From Bdellovibrio sp. 22V (lineage in GTDB: Bacteria > Bdellovibrionota > Bdellovibrionia > Bdellovibrionales > Bdellovibrionaceae), in the NCBI RefSeq assembly GCF_030169785.1, contig NZ_CP125854.1:3100001-3164000 (forward strand): a stretch of 64,000 nt of DNA, written 5' to 3'. The translations under genes were made by a program, and so were the position numbers. Shown piece by piece: positions 48,391 to 57,418 of the stretch. The number at the start of each line of letters is the position of its first letter. The stretch's first letter is position 1. The notes under the pieces were generated by a model, which saw only the letters and a program-made list of their open reading frames with translations, was not told the DNA's origin and ran no database searches.

Positions 48391-49005
48391 TTACAACTCC
48401 GCAAAATTCTTTAGGAGTGTGACACCAAAGTGGTGACTTTTCTCTGGGTGAAACTGAACACCATACACATGACCTTCAGAGACAACGCAGCTAAAATTTA
48501 AGCCGTAAGACGCCGTAGCTGCAATATTCTGATTTTGACTGCATTCAAAATAGTATGAGTGAAGAAAATAAAACCGTGCTTCTTTTTCGATTCCCTTGAA
48601 TAAGGGACAACCTGTCACAGGCTCAACGTCATTCCAGCCCATATGAGGCATCGGCAACTCAGCAAGATCAGGATTCGACTTAAACCATCGTACTTTTCCA
48701 GGTATCCACTGAAGACCTGGCAAGACGCCTTCTTCACTGCTATCTGCAAGCATTTGCATGCCTACGCAAATACCGAGCACAGGAACACGATCTTTTTGCA
48801 CAAGATTTGTGACCACTTCGCGCATACCGGAAGCGCTAAATCTTTCCATCGCATGATCGAAGGCGCCTACTCCCGGCAGGATAAGTTTAGTCGCGCCAAT
48901 CAATTCGTCCGCTGTTTTTGCCACCTTCACAGGGATGTGAAGGCGCTTATATACGTTCACGAATGCCTGAATGTTACCCAAACCGTAGTCGATGATGGTA
49001 ATCAT
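48391..49005 (-). CDS. HisH-like glutamine amidotransferase subunit
   Basis: The 204-residue class I glutaminase has IDYGLGNIQAFVN, PGVGAFDHAM, the nucleophile in LGICVGMQML and the His-Glu pair in YGVQFHPEKSHHFG. It releases ammonia from glutamine for the HisF-like partner. Here it belongs to the amidotransferase set with WbpG. Its start overlaps the end of wbpG by 4 bases. Confidence 0.92.
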   Translation of the reverse strand: MITIIDYGLGNIQAFVNVYKRLHIPVKVAKTADELIGATKLILPGVGAFDHAMERFSASGMREVVTNLVQKDRVPVLGICVGMQMLADSSEEGVLPGLQWIPGKVRWFKSNPDLAELPMPHMGWNDVEPVTGCPLFKGIEKEARFYFLHSYYFECSQNQNIAATASYGLNFSCVVSEGHVYGVQFHPEKSHHFGVTLLKNFAEL

Positions 49006-50144
49006 CTAAATAGCCTTTTCTCAAGCCCCATCGCTGTCATTGCTCGAGAGCCAATTCCAATAAGGAATCTTTTATTTTTATAGTCCAAGCATGTCTTATT
49101 CTTACCTTCAAAGATTGTTTGAAGTTCTGCGACACTCATATCAAGTTTATTCGCGACGTATTCAAATTCTGTTTTCAAAAACTCTTCATTCATTTCAGGT
49201 TTAGAGATCCGCTCAAGTGCCTCATCTCTCGTCATCTGACCTGTCATGATAAGACTTGAAAAATGCGCGCGACGTTTCTCGTAACCAAACTTTCGCGGCA
49301 TCCAGTAATCTTCATAAAAACGCGTGAAACGAGATTCATGGTGCTTGTGCTGGAACTTTTTCCAACCGAAACGCTTCTCTAAAGTTTCCTCAGCTTCACG
49401 CTTAATGTAGGGAACCAAATTGAGAGGACGTACGACTTCCATTCCTAATACATATCGATAGAAAATTTTGTACGACAAAATGTCTACAATAGGGAAAGTC
49501 TTCAATGGTCTTTTCCCGAACTTGGAGTGGATGTCTTTAATTAAGGTCTTATCAATACCTGGATAAGCTCCCCATTCTTCGGGTTCTCGACAACATTCAG
49601 TGGAGTAATTCCCACCCGTCAAAACATATTTAATTTTGTGCTTCTTCGCGAATTTATATAGAGCCGAAAAAAATGCTGTATCTTGGGGAATATCTTGATC
49701 AGGAACTTGCGCCTTTAGAAACGCTGTTTGCAGATCCTTCATTTCTTCCCAATTGATAACTTCCGTATAAAGATCGAGCCCCAAACCATCGACAAGCTTT
49801 TCAACATTTCCTACGGCCTGGTCTGTATTCCATCCTGCATCGACGTGAAATAAAAGTGGACGGAGGCCCATTTTTTCCTTCGCAATGTATGCTGCGTATG
49901 AACTGTCGAGCCCACCGCTCAAACCGATGATACAATCGAATTCACGTCCTTTTCCGTCCTTTTTAATTTTTTCCGTGAGTCGCTCTAACTTCGCCTCACC
50001 TCGAATATCGGAATGCCAACTAGGTTTTATACTTTCGCTGAAATTTCGACAGTAATCGCAGAGACCGGCCTCATCAAAAGTAATATTTGGATCGCTAGTA
50101 TCCATAATACAATTACTACAAATTTTGTACTCGCTCGAAGACAC
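49002..50144 (-). CDS. N-acetyl sugar amidotransferase (WbpG/PseA-like)
   Basis: The 380-residue protein has an N-terminal zinc-ribbon-like part (CSNCIMDTSDPNITFDE, LCDYC), an ATP PP-loop motif GLSGGLDSSYAAY and further GGNYSTECC. WbpG and PseA use ATP and ammonia to turn an N-acetyl into an acetamidino group. Likely targets are L-FucNAc (giving L-FucNAm) or legionaminic acid. The downstream HisH and HisF genes complete the complex. Confidence 0.92.
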   Translation of the reverse strand: MSSSEYKICSNCIMDTSDPNITFDEAGLCDYCRNFSESIKPSWHSDIRGEAKLERLTEKIKKDGKGREFDCIIGLSGGLDSSYAAYIAKEKMGLRPLLFHVDAGWNTDQAVGNVEKLVDGLGLDLYTEVINWEEMKDLQTAFLKAQVPDQDIPQDTAFFSALYKFAKKHKIKYVLTGGNYSTECCREPEEWGAYPGIDKTLIKDIHSKFGKRPLKTFPIVDILSYKIFYRYVLGMEVVRPLNLVPYIKREAEETLEKRFGWKKFQHKHHESRFTRFYEDYWMPRKFGYEKRRAHFSSLIMTGQMTRDEALERISKPEMNEEFLKTEFEYVANKLDMSVAELQTIFEGKNKTCLDYKNKRFLIGIGSRAMTAMGLEKRLFR

Positions 50145-50259: not shown

Positions 50260-51387
50260 CTATGCTTGTTCTGAATTTCTATAATTGATTCTTACGATCG
50301 CATACAGGGTCGCAAAATAAAATAAGTCAATAAGGGTGGGGAAAAGGACAGGCTCTGTCATGGCGCGGAAGAATATAACAAGCAGAGTTATTAACAAATA
50401 AAGACTGTTTCTATTAACTTTATTCTTCAAAAAAACCACAAAAGGGCTTGCAAGCAATAAAATTACATAAACTATACCGAACTTGCCATGAGCTCTAATA
50501 AAAGAATTATGTGGATTTCCCGAATAAAAATCACCGATGATAGAGCCTTTAAAATCACCTCCAAGAATCAGGTCCATAGGAGTTAAGCGCCTATAATAAT
50601 CAATCCACATTTCAATACGCGGTTGATCATAGAATCCTCTCGCTAAGTTTGTATTCATAATTAATGCTAAAATAGAGTCAAATCTCTTTACAATTAGGAA
50701 CGATCCAAAAATTACGACCGCCAAGTACACCCATCTTTTTGCTTTATCAAAGGCCAACCCATAAAAGAAGTTTATAGAAAGCAACATCAAGGACGCAAGG
50801 ATAGAACCACGCCCAAATCCTACATAGCAAATGAACAGCGTGAGAAAGTTTTGTGCCCAAGAAGGGAGAGTTCTTTTATAATGAAAATGTAAAGCATTAT
50901 AGCACGCCTGCAAAATTATTAGATATGAGGTAATACCATTTGCACTGGAACCTCCCACCAAAGAACTTAACGGATCAGATGCCGGATGCAAAATGATTAT
51001 AGAAATAAGTCCCATCTGAATAAGAAACAACGAGCCCCTGAAACAAACGTAAAAATAGTTGGTATTTTTTGAAAGGAAGTGGGAAACAAAAAAAATTAAA
51101 AGAATATAAATAAAATAAGCTAAATTGGTAAGACTTCTCTGTACGGAAAAAGGCAAAACAAGAAGACATGCTAATAATATGGAAGTTACAAAAGTAACAA
51201 CCGTTCGCTCTTCTCGAAGAAGGATTAGCTCAGATTTCTTTAAATATAAGAAAATAAATAATGTACTGATACCTCCCCACGAAAACATTACGAGAAAATT
51301 CTGAGATGCAAACGCTACAAATGTAAATACTAAATAAATGATCCCAAGTAGAATTAGATTTGTCCTTATGGCTTTATCTGCACTCAT
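50260..51387 (-). CDS. O-antigen polymerase Wzy-like protein
   Basis: The 375-residue membrane protein has about 10-11 hydrophobic helices and a periplasmic loop with FYSGNPHNSFIRAHGKFG, typical of Wzy/WaaL-type proteins. It would join repeat units on the periplasmic side. The region is AT-rich, as is usual for wzy. Wzy proteins share little sequence, so the name rests on topology and position next to wzx. The 115-base gap upstream shows nothing clear. Confidence 0.8.
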   Translation of the reverse strand: MSADKAIRTNLILLGIIYLVFTFVAFASQNFLVMFSWGGISTLFIFLYLKKSELILLREERTVVTFVTSILLACLLVLPFSVQRSLTNLAYFIYILLIFFVSHFLSKNTNYFYVCFRGSLFLIQMGLISIIILHPASDPLSSLVGGSSANGITSYLIILQACYNALHFHYKRTLPSWAQNFLTLFICYVGFGRGSILASLMLLSINFFYGLAFDKAKRWVYLAVVIFGSFLIVKRFDSILALIMNTNLARGFYDQPRIEMWIDYYRRLTPMDLILGGDFKGSIIGDFYSGNPHNSFIRAHGKFGIVYVILLLASPFVVFLKNKVNRNSLYLLITLLVIFFRAMTEPVLFPTLIDLFYFATLYAIVRINYRNSEQA

Positions 51388-51406: not shown

Positions 51407-52666
51407 TTACCTTAATCGCCACGGCATGCTATAGTTGAGATTGGATATCCACCAAACCAAAAAAAATGCAATAACCCGAGTGATCAAAAAAGCGTAAGCG
51501 GCCCCCATTACCTGATTCTCTTTTATTAAAAAGTAACTTAAACCAAGCCCCAAAAGATTTGAACCAATAGTAACAACAGAAAGGATAGCGGTTTTTTCGG
51601 TATAGAATAGATAGTTCGTAACCATTAAATACATCCCGCCAAATGCCTGACCAAGCACCAGGACACCGATTAGAGACTTAGCTTCCTGATACTCTTCGTT
51701 AAAGACTAAACTAATAAAGAGTGGACCTACTAGAAAAGCCAGAGCTGCTATGCCTAACATAACAACGAAATGTGCATAAGTTATTTTAACAACCAAGATT
51801 CTGGTTTGCTCTAAACCCTCTTTGAGATGTTCAAAAAGCCAAGGAACAAAAGCCCGATTGAAAGCATCACATGCAACCCCCAGTATCATCGACAACTGAA
51901 ACGCAAACAAGTAAATACCGACTGAGGATGCGTCTACGAGTTTCTTCAAAAAAAATAACGATGCCCAATTACTAAGAAAAATGGTCAACCCGTGGGGTAT
52001 TAAAGGAACACCAAATTTAAGAGCATTACGGATGTGCCTAGCATCATAACTTGCCACCACTCTCCGCTTTTTAACAATTCCCAATATAGAGACAATACCC
52101 ATAACAGCTGAAGCCAACAAAATAGAATAAATCCGCTCTCTTCCTCCTCCAGAAAAGTGGACGACGGCAATTAATCCTAGAACGACATTTAAAAGAATAC
52201 TGAGAATTTGGAAAATACTATAAAGAACCGTCTCACCTTCCGATTGAAGGATCGCAAGCAAGAAATTTAAGCCAAAAGAAAAAAAAGCGTATCCAAATCC
52301 TGCCCAGACTATAAATGGAGAAATATCGAAAAGATTTTTAGTTGGATTAATTAACGTGGCTAAAACAATGGAAATTACAATACCGCTTAACAACCACAAT
52401 AGAATAATATTATAATTATAAACACCAAATTCAGAGTCGCTAAATTCAACTTTCTTTTTACTTACTGAACCCGAAGCTCCAAACCCCACCACAGCAAGGA
52501 AAATTGTGTAAATACCTTGAAAAAGTCCCACCATCCCATACTCTTCAGTGCTTAAGTGTTTAGTAAAGAGAGGCATTGCGAGAAATGGAATCACCGCGCT
52601 GATTATTCCTGAAATAAGATAAATTAAGGAGTTGAAACCTAATCCCTTAATGATCGAGACTTTCAT
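51407..52666 (-). CDS. Wzx-type polysaccharide flippase
   Basis: The 419-residue protein has about 12-14 transmembrane helices of the polysaccharide transporter (MATE-like) family, beginning GLGFNSLIYLISGIISAVI with HLSTEEYGMVGLFQG. It moves undecaprenyl-linked repeat units across the inner membrane. It is AT-rich and follows the Wzz-like gene by 5 bases. Confidence 0.88.
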   Translation of the reverse strand: MKVSIIKGLGFNSLIYLISGIISAVIPFLAMPLFTKHLSTEEYGMVGLFQGIYTIFLAVVGFGASGSVSKKKVEFSDSEFGVYNYNIILLWLLSGIVISIVLATLINPTKNLFDISPFIVWAGFGYAFFSFGLNFLLAILQSEGETVLYSIFQILSILLNVVLGLIAVVHFSGGGRERIYSILLASAVMGIVSILGIVKKRRVVASYDARHIRNALKFGVPLIPHGLTIFLSNWASLFFLKKLVDASSVGIYLFAFQLSMILGVACDAFNRAFVPWLFEHLKEGLEQTRILVVKITYAHFVVMLGIAALAFLVGPLFISLVFNEEYQEAKSLIGVLVLGQAFGGMYLMVTNYLFYTEKTAILSVVTIGSNLLGLGLSYFLIKENQVMGAAYAFLITRVIAFFLVWWISNLNYSMPWRLR

Positions 52667-52671
52667 ACAAT

Positions 52672-53487
52672 CTAAGTCTCTTTAAATTCATAAGTCATGT
52701 CCCCTCTAACCGCAGAATAGCTAACAACTAACACGGCTATCGCTACGCCCGAAAAAGCACACAAAATTGCAAATAATAAGCTTTTTCCAGAATTACCGCT
52801 ATCTGTAGATTCAGTCTTCTCGATGCGAAACAAATTCAATCCACTAAGTGAAATTTTTCGAGAGGACAGATCTTCAAGGTCACTCCTTATTTCCGTTAGG
52901 GTAGTTAAATTGTCGGACTTAGCGTCGGCTTTTCTTTGGGCACCATTCTTTCTATTAAAGATCTCTTTTCTGGTCACTCGCATTTCTTGTGCTCGAAGCT
53001 CCGCAAGCTTTCTTTGAACCTCAATTTTTACCTTATCCAAAAAACGCTCAACGATACGTACCTGAAGCCTCCCTAGCACATCAACCGATGTGCTAGGGAG
53101 GCTCATAGAATTTTTGGTAAGAAAAAGATTATACTGTTTGCGATAAGGGTCATAATAACTTCGAATATCCAGCAAACCTGAATCACCCGTTTCCAATCTG
53201 ATTCTTTTTAAGTCATCGACGTTATAAAAAACTTCTCCGATTGTTTGACGAAGCAAGTCTCCAGCTAAGATCACTGTTTCATTATTAATCCATTTAATAT
53301 CCCATGAATTAATATAAATAATATCTTCATTGCTCTCGAGTTCATCATTCACCGAAAACGTAACTCGCTCAATTCGATTATCCGAGAGTAAATTAAAAGA
53401 AAATAAAAAGCCAAGTATGCCACACGTAGTTGCACAAATGAGGAAAAGCCATTTTCTATACATTAGAATACTAAGAATTTTACACAT
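52672..53487 (-). CDS. Wzz-like chain-length determinant, short
   Basis: The 271-residue protein has two transmembrane helices, near residues 13-33 and 233-256, around a periplasmic helical domain. This is the layout of polysaccharide co-polymerases (Wzz). The periplasmic part is shorter than usual and lacks a clear Wzz signature, so the family is inferred from topology and place beside wzx and wzy. Residues 129-141 are coded by a perfect inverted repeat (53066-53103). Confidence 0.65.
   Translation of the reverse strand: MCKILSILMYRKWLFLICATTCGILGFLFSFNLLSDNRIERVTFSVNDELESNEDIIYINSWDIKWINNETVILAGDLLRQTIGEVFYNVDDLKRIRLETGDSGLLDIRSYYDPYRKQYNLFLTKNSMSLPSTSVDVLGRLQVRIVERFLDKVKIEVQRKLAELRAQEMRVTRKEIFNRKNGAQRKADAKSDNLTTLTEIRSDLEDLSSRKISLSGLNLFRIEKTESTDSGNSGKSLLFAILCAFSGVAIAVLVVSYSAVRGDMTYEFKET
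53066..53103. repeat. Perfect 17-bp inverted repeat inside the Wzz-like gene
   Basis: Bases 53066-53082 and 53087-53103 are exact reverse complements, with AACC as the only loop. The frame stays open and codes for SLPSTSVDVLGRL. In RNA this would be a very stable hairpin. No T-run follows on either strand, so it is not a simple terminator. Confidence 0.9.
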
Positions 53488-53490
53488 GAC

Positions 53491-54174
53491 TTACGGCCTT
53501 TCGCCTTTGAGCATGCGTACGCCTGCTTGTTCAGCTTTAATCCAATCTTCTTCATAATCTATATCAATGGAAATACTAGATTCCATTTCAAAGGCGCCTG
53601 TTTTTTCTGTAAATAAGGACTTCTTTTGGATAAAATAATTGTAATTGGATATATAAATCGCTCCGTTTAGAACTACTAACTTATTCTCCGGGCTTTTTAC
53701 AGGAAGAAAATTTGTTAACTTTGTTAATAGTCCTTGTGATTCTATCGCGATATGGGAAATATTTTCGGAGCAAGGACGCACACTAACAATCTGCTCAAAT
53801 TCACTCTCATAAAAAACCTTAAGACACTCTGCAATATCCTTGCTGCCACGAAGTGGTGATGTTGGTTGCAACAGAATAATATTATCAAATTCATCTTTTA
53901 TCTTCGATATCACGTCCAATATCACTTCGACACTCGTTGCACCGTCTGTCGCCAGATGTCCTTCTCGCTCAATAAATGTAATAGACGGATATGAACTTTT
54001 CATATTGAGAATATCAATATCATCAGTAGTGACCACAACGCGTGATATTTTCTCAACCGCAATCGCTGCGTCCATGGTCCACTGGATTAATGGTTTTCCT
54101 AGAAATTTTCGTTTATTTTTTCCTGGAACTCTTTTGGAGCCAGCTCTTGCAGGTATTATTGCGAGGTTCTTCAT
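53491..54174 (-). CDS. CMP-nonulosonate cytidylyltransferase (LegF-like)
   Basis: The 227-residue protein has the CMP-sialic acid synthetase motifs IPARAGSKRVPGKNKR, PLIQWTMDAA, ILLQPTSPLRG and IDIDYEEDW. It activates a nonulosonic acid with CTP. With LegB, LegC, LegI, LegG and PtmE nearby the substrate is probably legionaminic acid or a variant. It starts 4 bases before the end of the PtmE-like gene region. Confidence 0.92.
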   Translation of the reverse strand: MKNLAIIPARAGSKRVPGKNKRKFLGKPLIQWTMDAAIAVEKISRVVVTTDDIDILNMKSSYPSITFIEREGHLATDGATSVEVILDVISKIKDEFDNIILLQPTSPLRGSKDIAECLKVFYESEFEQIVSVRPCSENISHIAIESQGLLTKLTNFLPVKSPENKLVVLNGAIYISNYNYFIQKKSLFTEKTGAFEMESSISIDIDYEEDWIKAEQAGVRMLKGERP

Positions 54175-54177
54175 GAA

Positions 54178-55230
54178 TTACTCACCAAAATGTCCTTCGA
54201 ACTCTGCCTGAGCTCTATGGAAATCTTCCAAGCGCCCAATATCGACCCAATAGTCTTTTAACTTGTAACATCGAACCGACTTATTCTCCTGCTTTAAAGC
54301 CGTAAATAGATTCGGCATATCAAAGAACTGTCCTTGAGGAATGTGTTTTAATGCTTCTGGTGATAAAATATAGATTCCAGCGTTTACAAATGTACGCTCC
54401 CTAGGCTTTTCTTCTATAGACAAAATATTATCACCGTCGACTCTAACTACTCCATACGGAATTTCAATATAATGCTCACGCACTACCATCGTTGCTGCTG
54501 CTCCCGTAAAAGAGTGAGCATCAAGCATTTCAGAAAAGTTCGCACGAGTTAAAATGTCACCATTCATTACAAAAAAAGGTTCTTTAGGAATATCAGGCAT
54601 AATTGAAAGACCTCCGCAGGTTCCAAGAGGTATATCTTCGTGTAGATATTCAATTGCAACCCCCCACTTCTCTCCATTTGCAAAGTATTCTTTAATCATT
54701 TCAGCGCGATAATTAACGACGAAGACGAACTTATAGAATCCGAGTTCGCTAAAACGCCGAACGATAGTTTCCAGTATGGGCCTACCCCCAACCTTCAAAA
54801 GAGGCTTTGGTATACTATCAGTGAGAGGACTTAACCTTTTTCCAAAACCTCCCACCATGAGAATAACTTTGTTTTCTCGCTTAATAAGGCCAAATAGCTC
54901 ATCTGAACCCTCAATGCGAACAACACGCCCAGTACTATCAAGTACTGGCAAATGACGAATTCGCCACTGACGCATTTTGGCCAACACCTCACTCCGAGAT
55001 AATCCTTCGGATATGGCCCTTGGACTTTTGTTCATTACATCGACAACCTTTTGATCCATATTGGGTGATTTCAAAAGTGCACGACGAATATCACCATCAG
55101 TTAATGCACCAACAAGCTTTCCCTCTTGGTTTAACACAAAACATATCTGCAATAGATTTTTATCCAAAATTTCCATCGCGCGACGAAGCGTATCCTGAGG
55201 TGATACAAAAATATCGGATGTAACTTTCAT
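54178..55230 (-). CDS. PtmE-like GlcN-1-P guanylyltransferase with CBS domains
   Basis: The 350-residue protein has two N-terminal CBS domains (GALTDGDIRRALL, RHLPVLDSTGRVV) and a nucleotidyltransferase domain with VILMVGGFGKRLSPLTDSIPKP. PtmE of Campylobacter has the same build and makes the GDP-glucosamine that starts legionaminic acid synthesis. This shows the GDP-linked route rather than the UDP route. CBS domains suggest control by nucleotides. Confidence 0.9.
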   Translation of the reverse strand: MKVTSDIFVSPQDTLRRAMEILDKNLLQICFVLNQEGKLVGALTDGDIRRALLKSPNMDQKVVDVMNKSPRAISEGLSRSEVLAKMRQWRIRHLPVLDSTGRVVRIEGSDELFGLIKRENKVILMVGGFGKRLSPLTDSIPKPLLKVGGRPILETIVRRFSELGFYKFVFVVNYRAEMIKEYFANGEKWGVAIEYLHEDIPLGTCGGLSIMPDIPKEPFFVMNGDILTRANFSEMLDAHSFTGAAATMVVREHYIEIPYGVVRVDGDNILSIEEKPRERTFVNAGIYILSPEALKHIPQGQFFDMPNLFTALKQENKSVRCYKLKDYWVDIGRLEDFHRAQAEFEGHFGE

Positions 55231-55248
55231 TATTAATCCACCATATTC

Positions 55249-56412
55249 TTATTTTCGATCATAAAACATTTTTTTAGGAAAGATGGTAAACTTCGTTGAC
55301 TTCAGAATTTCAACCATCTGTTCCGCAGCATTTCCAATTCCATACAAGGAGAAAGAACATGCACCGTGAGTCTCTTTAAAACGCACGGCCGCATTTATCG
55401 CATCAGAGATTTCATCAACGGTACCAGCGACGTTAAATATAGATTTGGCCATTTCACGTCCTTTTTGACGATCTCCTATATTTACAGTTGGAGTTCCAAT
55501 CGCAGGAGCCTCAATAATTCCGCTTGAAGAATTACCGGCAACAACACTTGCAATCTTTAAGAGAGACAAATAGCGTTTCATTCCGAGTGAGTAAACGTAA
55601 GCCGTCGTTCTTGAGTGAACTTTAACGAACTCTTCAATCTCTTTGTGAATCGCTTCATTCCCATGATCTGCATTAGCCCTTGTGAATACAACACTTGTAA
55701 TTCCAGCTTCAATTCTACTCTCTAAGGCCGTCAATAGAGCTTTAACTTGAGCATGATCTTTTTCAGGATTTAATGTTTCGGGATGATATGTGATCGCAAT
55801 GACCTCGGAGCGCAAGTCTATCCCGAGGATAGCTTCCATTTCCTTCTTTGAAAGTAGCTGAACATTTTTAATGTTATCGACGCCAAGTGCGCCTACATTA
55901 AACACACGATCCGGGGCTTCACCTAACGAAATGACACGTTCACGATATCGTTCCGTCGCTACAAAGTGAATGTATGAAAGTTTAGAAATACAATGGCGAT
56001 AAGCTTCATCCAAAGCGCCTTCCGTCACCTCTCCTCCATGTAGATGAACTATCGGAATTCCCAAGCCATTGCATGCAACTGCAAATGCAAGGGCTTCGAA
56101 CCTATCACCTAGAAGAATTGCAAAATCGGGTTTATCTGCAGCCAAAACTTTCGCAAAACTACTTAAAGCCTCAGCCATAATCCCTAGATGAAATATATCG
56201 ACAGAGTCCTCCATAATCACAGGAACTTGATAGAAAATAGGTATTTGTTGAGCTTTTATTTCGTCTACTGTTAGGCCATGCCCTTTTGACAAATGCGTAC
56301 CGGTAACAAAAAGCCTTAATTCAAATACAGGTTCAGATAGAAGACGTTTTAACAGGGGTGTTAATATACCAAAATCAGCTCGAGTGCTCGTAAAAACACA
56401 AACCTTATTCAT
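55249..56412 (-). CDS. Hydrolysing 2-epimerase (LegG/NeuC-like)
   Basis: The 387-residue protein starts at the ATG at 56412 (MNKVCVFTSTRADFGIL); the longer frame overlaps legI too far. It shows VTGTHLSKGHGLT, LLGDRFEALAFA, HLHGGEVTEGALDEAYRH and GNSSSGIIEAPAIGTP. It opens GDP-sugar at C1 and epimerises C2 to give the ManNAc-like hexose used by LegI. It overlaps the legI stop by 8 bases. Confidence 0.92.
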   Translation of the reverse strand: MNKVCVFTSTRADFGILTPLLKRLLSEPVFELRLFVTGTHLSKGHGLTVDEIKAQQIPIFYQVPVIMEDSVDIFHLGIMAEALSSFAKVLAADKPDFAILLGDRFEALAFAVACNGLGIPIVHLHGGEVTEGALDEAYRHCISKLSYIHFVATERYRERVISLGEAPDRVFNVGALGVDNIKNVQLLSKKEMEAILGIDLRSEVIAITYHPETLNPEKDHAQVKALLTALESRIEAGITSVVFTRANADHGNEAIHKEIEEFVKVHSRTTAYVYSLGMKRYLSLLKIASVVAGNSSSGIIEAPAIGTPTVNIGDRQKGREMAKSIFNVAGTVDEISDAINAAVRFKETHGACSFSLYGIGNAAEQMVEILKSTKFTIFPKKMFYDRK

Positions 56413-57418
56413 CGATGAGCTCGTTGATAGAATAATCCCTAGCAGCGGTCTTGCCAAGAAACTCGTACCATCGCATCGGAGATATGCCAGTTCCAGGTCT
56501 CAACACAGTCAAATTTTCTTCAGAGAACACTTCGCCTCTTTTAATATTTACTTTAGCCACGAGCGATTTACGAGCTACAGCTCTATTCTTAAACTCACTT
56601 TGCGTTGGTATTTTTTGAGAGACACCTAACGCCTCCTCAATATTTCGGATTGAAGTCACCATAGCCTTAAGCTCATGTGGCTCAAGAGACGCTTTGTGAT
56701 CTGGTCCTTCCATATTACGATCTAAAGTAAAATGTTTTTCGATAACGGTTGCTCCCAAAGCAACAGCCGCAATTGGAACCTCAATTCCCATTGTGTGATC
56801 AGAATATCCGACAGCAACACCTAAATCAGCTCCCAAAGTAGCCATTACATTTAGATTAACGTCAGACATCTTCGTCGGATAATCAGTATTGCAGTGAAGA
56901 ACGGTAATTTTAGACAGCGGAGTTCCCTTTGACGTGAGAACTTTTACTGCATCACGTACCTCGACAAGGTCAGCCATACCTGTTGACAAAATGATTGGAT
57001 CACCAGTAGCTGCCAACCTCTCGAGATATGGCAGGTTAGTGATCTCTCCACTTGGAATCTTCCAAATTCCCATTCCAAGAGTCTTAAGAAAGTCTAAACT
57101 TGCGACATCGAATCCTGTTGACAGAAACTTAATATTTTTCTTACGGCAGTGCTCTATGAGAGCATGATGATACTCCGGCTTTAATTCTAGTTTCTTCAGC
57201 ATGTTAAATTGACTTCCGCCGTTCATGCCAATGTTATTTTTTTGATACTCTGCCATCGGAGCTTCGCTTGTCACTAGTGTCTCCGCCTTGAACGTTTGGA
57301 ATTTGACGATGTCTGCTCCTGCTTCCGCAGCAACATCAATGAGCTTAATAGCCGTCTCGAGATCACCGTTATGGTTCACTCCTGCTTCGGCAATGATTAA
57401 CACTTTCTTCAACCTCAT
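56405..57418 (-). CDS. Legionaminate synthase (LegI/NeuB-like)
   Basis: The 337-residue protein has the NeuB TIM barrel (IIAEAGVNHNGDLETAIKLI, STGFDVASLDFL, GYSDHTMGIEVPIAAVALGA, EKHFTLDRNMEGPDHKASLE) and a C-terminal antifreeze-like SAF domain (RKSLVAKVNIKRGE). It condenses the 2,4-diamino hexose with phosphoenolpyruvate to the C9 nonulosonic acid. It overlaps the formyltransferase gene by 4 bases. Confidence 0.93.
   Translation of the reverse strand: MRLKKVLIIAEAGVNHNGDLETAIKLIDVAAEAGADIVKFQTFKAETLVTSEAPMAEYQKNNIGMNGGSQFNMLKKLELKPEYHHALIEHCRKKNIKFLSTGFDVASLDFLKTLGMGIWKIPSGEITNLPYLERLAATGDPIILSTGMADLVEVRDAVKVLTSKGTPLSKITVLHCNTDYPTKMSDVNLNVMATLGADLGVAVGYSDHTMGIEVPIAAVALGATVIEKHFTLDRNMEGPDHKASLEPHELKAMVTSIRNIEEALGVSQKIPTQSEFKNRAVARKSLVAKVNIKRGEVFSEENLTVLRPGTGISPMRWYEFLGKTAARDYSINELIDE

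Follow-up and report, generated by a model that had tools for sequence, protein, structure and literature searches.

The inverted repeat and its host operon

The window (the whole 64,000-nucleotide stretch of DNA that was analysed) carries a minus-strand operon of tightly spaced genes for a sialic-acid-type surface polysaccharide (Table 1). In the sugar nucleotidyltransferase of this operon, weak N-terminal matches to CBS-bearing families (the C-terminal part of KpsF/GutQ, and HhpR) were observed. The gene of interest lies between those for the cytidylyltransferase and the flippase. Its product was characterized by a hydrophobic stretch near residues 13-34 and by a C-terminal segment that is strongly hydrophobic from about residue 237. 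The initial annotation had called this gene Wzz-like, a description that fits the operon position and the two hydrophobic ends; a search of the protein against Pfam, NCBIfam, and PDB sequences, however, returned no match to Wzz.

Within this ORF, two 17-nt arms with 100% complementarity, separated by a 4-nt loop, form a perfect inverted repeat, which reads AGCCTCCCTAGCACATC / AACC / GATGTGCTAGGGAGGCT on the plus strand and AGCCTCCCTAGCACATC GGTT GATGTGCTAGGGAGGCT on the coding strand. This was the longest fully complementary pair of the window within a search distance of 60 nt. The repeat is contained entirely in the ORF, with its first base at the boundary of codon 129 and its end in codon 141, and the reading frame is uninterrupted across the whole palindrome. 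Rare codons were concentrated in one arm, the 3' arm of the mRNA.

Table 1. Coordinates of the inverted repeat, its host gene and the surrounding operon (window positions), and of two palindromes from elsewhere in the same genome (positions in the stretches named)
Feature	Position	Strand	Description
Perfect inverted repeat	53066-53103	-	Two 17-nt arms and a 4-nt loop
3' arm (mRNA sense)	53066-53082	-	Encodes DVLGRL; rare codons CTA, GGG, AGG
Loop, 4 nt	53083-53086	-	GGTT in mRNA sense; AACC on the plus strand
5' arm (mRNA sense)	53087-53103	-	Encodes SLPSTS; codons more ordinary
Host ORF, 271 aa	52672-53487	-	Polysaccharide co-polymerase (Wzz/PCP)-like topology; putative family assignment
NeuB-type synthase	56405-57418	-	Operon gene
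NeuC-type epimerase	55249-56457	-	Operon gene
Sugar nucleotidyltransferase	54178-55230	-	Operon gene; N-terminal CBS-like match
CMP-sugar cytidylyltransferase	53491-54174	-	Upstream gene; CTP_transf_3; nearest NCBIfam model PseF, below cut-off
Wzx-type flippase	51407-52666	-	Downstream gene; Polysacc_synt, PF01943
Evidently membrane-spanning protein	50260-51387	-	Unassigned; where a polymerase would stand
WbuX-like amidotransferase	49002-50144	-	Operon gene
27-nt palindrome, example 1	L017 16718-16746		Same genome
27-nt palindrome, example 2	L030 2790-2820		Same genome

On the coding strand, the repeat folds into a hairpin of about -36 to -38.4 kcal/mol, which was the dominant local structure, with a z-score of -6.65 against dinucleotide shuffles and of about -6 against synonymous shuffles. 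The stem reaches 18 pairs in RNA when a wobble pair is counted. No T-run directly follows the hairpin on either strand, in agreement with the initial annotation. The hairpin was not reported by the terminator scan, and the promoter and terminator search found nothing at the site; the possibility of an intrinsic terminator was therefore rejected. A search of Rfam with the hairpin returned no family, the best E-value being 0.2, far below the gathering score.

Comparison of the stem with chance expectation

Based on base composition, a stem of 17 bp or longer with a loop of 3-20 nt is expected about 7 × 10⁻⁵ times per 64-kb window, which is a per-window figure and not a final P value, since the total number of windows scanned enters too; the corresponding expectation is 0.004 per 3.6-Mb genome. 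For comparison with coding DNA, we used 1,017 ORFs (1.17 Mb of coding sequence) sampled in stretches that cover 1.66 Mb (46%) of this genome. The next longest perfect coding stem in this set was 12 bp, and synonymous-codon shuffles of the set (20 replicates) gave longest stems of 11 to 15 bp, which makes the 17-bp stem an outlier within its own genome. Moreover, when the hairpin residues were recoded 20,000 times with random synonymous codons, no stem was longer than 14 bp, so the pairing is no ordinary by-product of the protein sequence. The very small chance expectation proposed in the initial annotation was thus borne out, both by composition and in the sampled coding DNA. Perfect coding stems of 9, 10, 11, and 12 bp were observed 64, 23, 5, and 2 times in the 1.17-Mb set, versus 58, 16, 4, and 1 times after shuffling, respectively; as there was no clear genome-wide excess of these shorter stems, no general process is evident. 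Overall, the hairpin is genuine and unusually perfect for coding DNA.

Coincidental complementarity, noticed among the very many windows that were read, was retained as a rival explanation, for the per-window figure takes no account of the size of that scan. At the per-window expectation given above, one such stem would be expected across many thousands of scanned windows, and the absence of conservation in the orthologue (see below) is what coincidence would leave. Against this, the stem exceeds the next coding stem of the sampled DNA by 5 bp, which is roughly a thousandfold step, and its loop lies at the short end of the range, where template switching is favoured. We therefore consider pure coincidence unlikely.

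Copy number, orthologue and other palindromes

The initial annotation had proposed a search of the genome for further copies and an alignment with orthologues to reveal a 38-base insertion, and both were performed. With up to three mismatches allowed, neither the palindrome nor its paired arms were found elsewhere in the same genome; besides the two arms themselves, the search gave one single-arm match with two mismatches, which had no partner arm. Nor was the palindrome matched in the order's 140 remaining genomes (up to three mismatches), in GTDB contigs, or in viral contigs. A repeat family was therefore rejected.

Among 24 genomes of the genus, 141 of the order, and 369 of the phylum, one orthologue of the host protein was identified (31-35% identity), in a genome of the same genus (G006), and one scan of genome contigs added no others. 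The G006 gene has the same gene order around it, with matching neighbours on both sides. The alignment was gap-free between about codons 15 and 175, with equal length across the hairpin, which indicates that sequence was replaced there and not added; when residues 129-141 were removed from the host protein, the alignment score to G006 dropped from 383 to 366. The hairpin stretch belongs to the least conserved parts of the gene (for amino-acid identity to G006, rank 10 of 162 windows), and nearly all of its residues differ in G006.

The equivalent stretch of this single distant orthologue showed no significant hairpin (z = -1.06, with 31 of 200 shuffles equally good), and the site was absent from the structured windows of the G006 gene. 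A G006 fold centred at nearly the same codons was considered as a conserved structure, yet it was no better than shuffles and was dropped. There was thus no sign of conserved structure; one distant orthologue is compatible with a lineage-specific element.

These results bear on a possible function of the hairpin in RNA, as a translation pause, an RNase processing point, or an RNA stabiliser within the coding sequence, which would fix how much Wzz-like protein is made relative to the products of wzx and the wzy-like gene downstream. Such a function would fit the high stability of the coding-strand stem (-38.4 kcal/mol), its location in the middle of an operon of tightly packed genes, and the position of the rare codons in the 3' arm. 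Against it, the G006 orthologue shares the gene order yet shows no significant hairpin, Rfam gave no family, and the site has neither a T-run nor a promoter or terminator; we regard an RNA function as doubtful. The more specific proposal, that a lineage-specific stable hairpin serves as a pause or RNA-processing point tuning the chain-length regulator against flippase and polymerase output, appears quite improbable.

Several other palindromes were observed in the same genome. A dispersed 27-nt palindrome, GGAAAAAGGTACC-N-GGTACCTTTTTCC, was present at 38 places (up to three mismatches), with 18 copies in one other genome of the genus (G020) and 0-2 in the remaining members, a distribution that, by analogy, may reflect the patchy expansion of a REP-like element. 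A second REP-like family, AAAAGGTGCCTGCTTCTTTTTTCTGGC, borders a Y1_Tnp gene on either side, in inverted orientation (L129, positions 1152 and 1916), and recurs at about 20 sites of the 46% sample, including copies in L067, L069, L080, L094, L113, and others; together with the Y1 transposase gene, it resembles a RAYT and its associated REP/REPIN elements. Among the papers searched, none covered RAYT together with Bdellovibrio. Another sequence, GGTACCTGCTTCCC, and a partial inverted copy of it flank another Y1 transposase gene (L127, positions 1182 and 1968), and GGTACCTGCTTCCC also occurs as a perfect 17-bp palindrome with a 4-nt loop between two convergent gene ends (L069, 14145-14182). Finally, a perfect 22-23-bp hairpin, GGTACGGCCTTACTTTTGGTTG, was present in two copies at gene ends (L116, 6841-6896, and L122, 2390-2443), with 10-nt loops of differing sequence, and further single-arm relatives were present.

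The stems of 17-23 bp at L116, L122, L114, and L069 were considered as coding parallels to the hairpin and rejected, since they lie between genes or at gene ends.

The initial annotation had suggested a mobile palindromic element that inserted in frame; candidates, whole or as a remnant, would be REP/REPIN, MITE, or sequences of the Rickettsia-palindromic-element type. Such an element would suit a genome that has palindromic repeat families, two of which match sequences beside Y1 transposase genes, and perfect 17-23-bp stems between its genes. The palindrome itself, however, is a single copy without a relative in the order or in the other collections, its 38 nt are not a multiple of three, and its length equals that of the gapless orthologue, so that a mobile origin is very unlikely. 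The palindrome was likewise rejected as a member of the REP-like families of this genome: the sequences are unrelated except for a flanking 7-mer, GTACCTG, beside the left arm, which was judged to be due to chance.

A site acting at the DNA level, either for protein binding or for recombination and strand inversion, was the least probable of the explanations considered. Long palindromes can form cruciforms or bind dimeric proteins; perfect arms of 17 bp, however, are longer than ordinary operator half-sites. The site is also buried in the middle of a gene and has no conserved counterpart, and no second copy was found that could serve as a recombination partner, which leaves the suggested inversion site unsupported. 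As judged from these sequence comparisons, the single copy and the orthologue of equal length indicate that the hairpin is not a length-adding insertion, a repeat family, or an inversion site; nor is it a terminator.

Template switching as the probable origin

We suggest that the hairpin probably arose by a short template switch during replication (quasipalindrome correction), an event that we infer, with moderate confidence, from its product. A template switch would be expected to leave a perfect inverted repeat with a short spacer, beyond chance expectation, at a unique locus outside any dispersed repeat family, and the hairpin shows both features; changes clustered in one arm, as compared with a close relative that carries an imperfect repeat, would be a third. 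In such an event, the replicating strand would fold back or jump strands where a short, imperfect inverted repeat already existed, one arm would be rewritten to pair fully with the other, and the strand would then return to its template, so that sequence is replaced at unchanged length. As a template switch is length-neutral, the frame would have remained open. The event would have fallen where this membrane-anchored surface-polysaccharide protein is poorly conserved and residue changes may be tolerated.

As for which arm was rewritten, the concentration of rare codons hints that the 3' arm is the derived copy, whereas amino-acid similarity to G006 weakly hints that the 5' arm may be derived: DVLGRL is closer to the EIFLLL of G006 than SLPSTS is to its SQRQIG. 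These two hints conflict, and G006, at its level of identity, is too distant for reconstruction of the ancestor.

This kind of event is documented in other organisms. In E. coli, when the polymerase stalls at an imperfect inverted repeat, it takes the nascent strand as its template, which yields a perfect repeat (PMC7202029). In yeast coding genes, template switches changed as many as five adjacent residues and left perfect repeats with arms of up to 16 bp, short spacers being favoured (PMC8604942). Among rRNA hairpins, loops of four bases are enriched among instantaneous compensatory changes attributed to template switching (PMC8794818).

The quasipalindrome template switches of E. coli thyA and lacZ (Ripley model) likewise consist of a perfect short-spacer repeat in a gene, without a repeat family, but the ancestral imperfect repeat is unseen in the present case. 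The S. cerevisiae repeats resemble the hairpin in their coding location, in their similar arm length, and in the change of several adjacent residues; those events were polarised on strain trees (PMC8604942), whereas the hairpin was read from a single genome. The coding palindromes of Nematomorpha mitochondria are also perfect inverted repeats with both arms translated, but they are numerous, with a mean of 43 bp, and their arms encode conserved residues, in contrast to the single 17-bp stem and unconserved residues found here (PMC6649704). Rickettsia palindromic elements, which are likewise in-frame palindromes in bacterial genes, belong to repeat families whose insertion makes the protein longer, unlike this single copy in a protein of unchanged length.

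Most probably, the hairpin is a scar left by mutation, of a kind already known, and not a new element or switch. If template switching is indeed its origin, it would provide a clean bacterial case in which a single replication error rewrote up to about six neighbouring codons of a surface-polysaccharide gene while the frame was kept, the value of which is modest and illustrative pending the ancestral state from a close strain. It would also mean that fast-evolving membrane proteins can acquire multi-residue changes in a single step.
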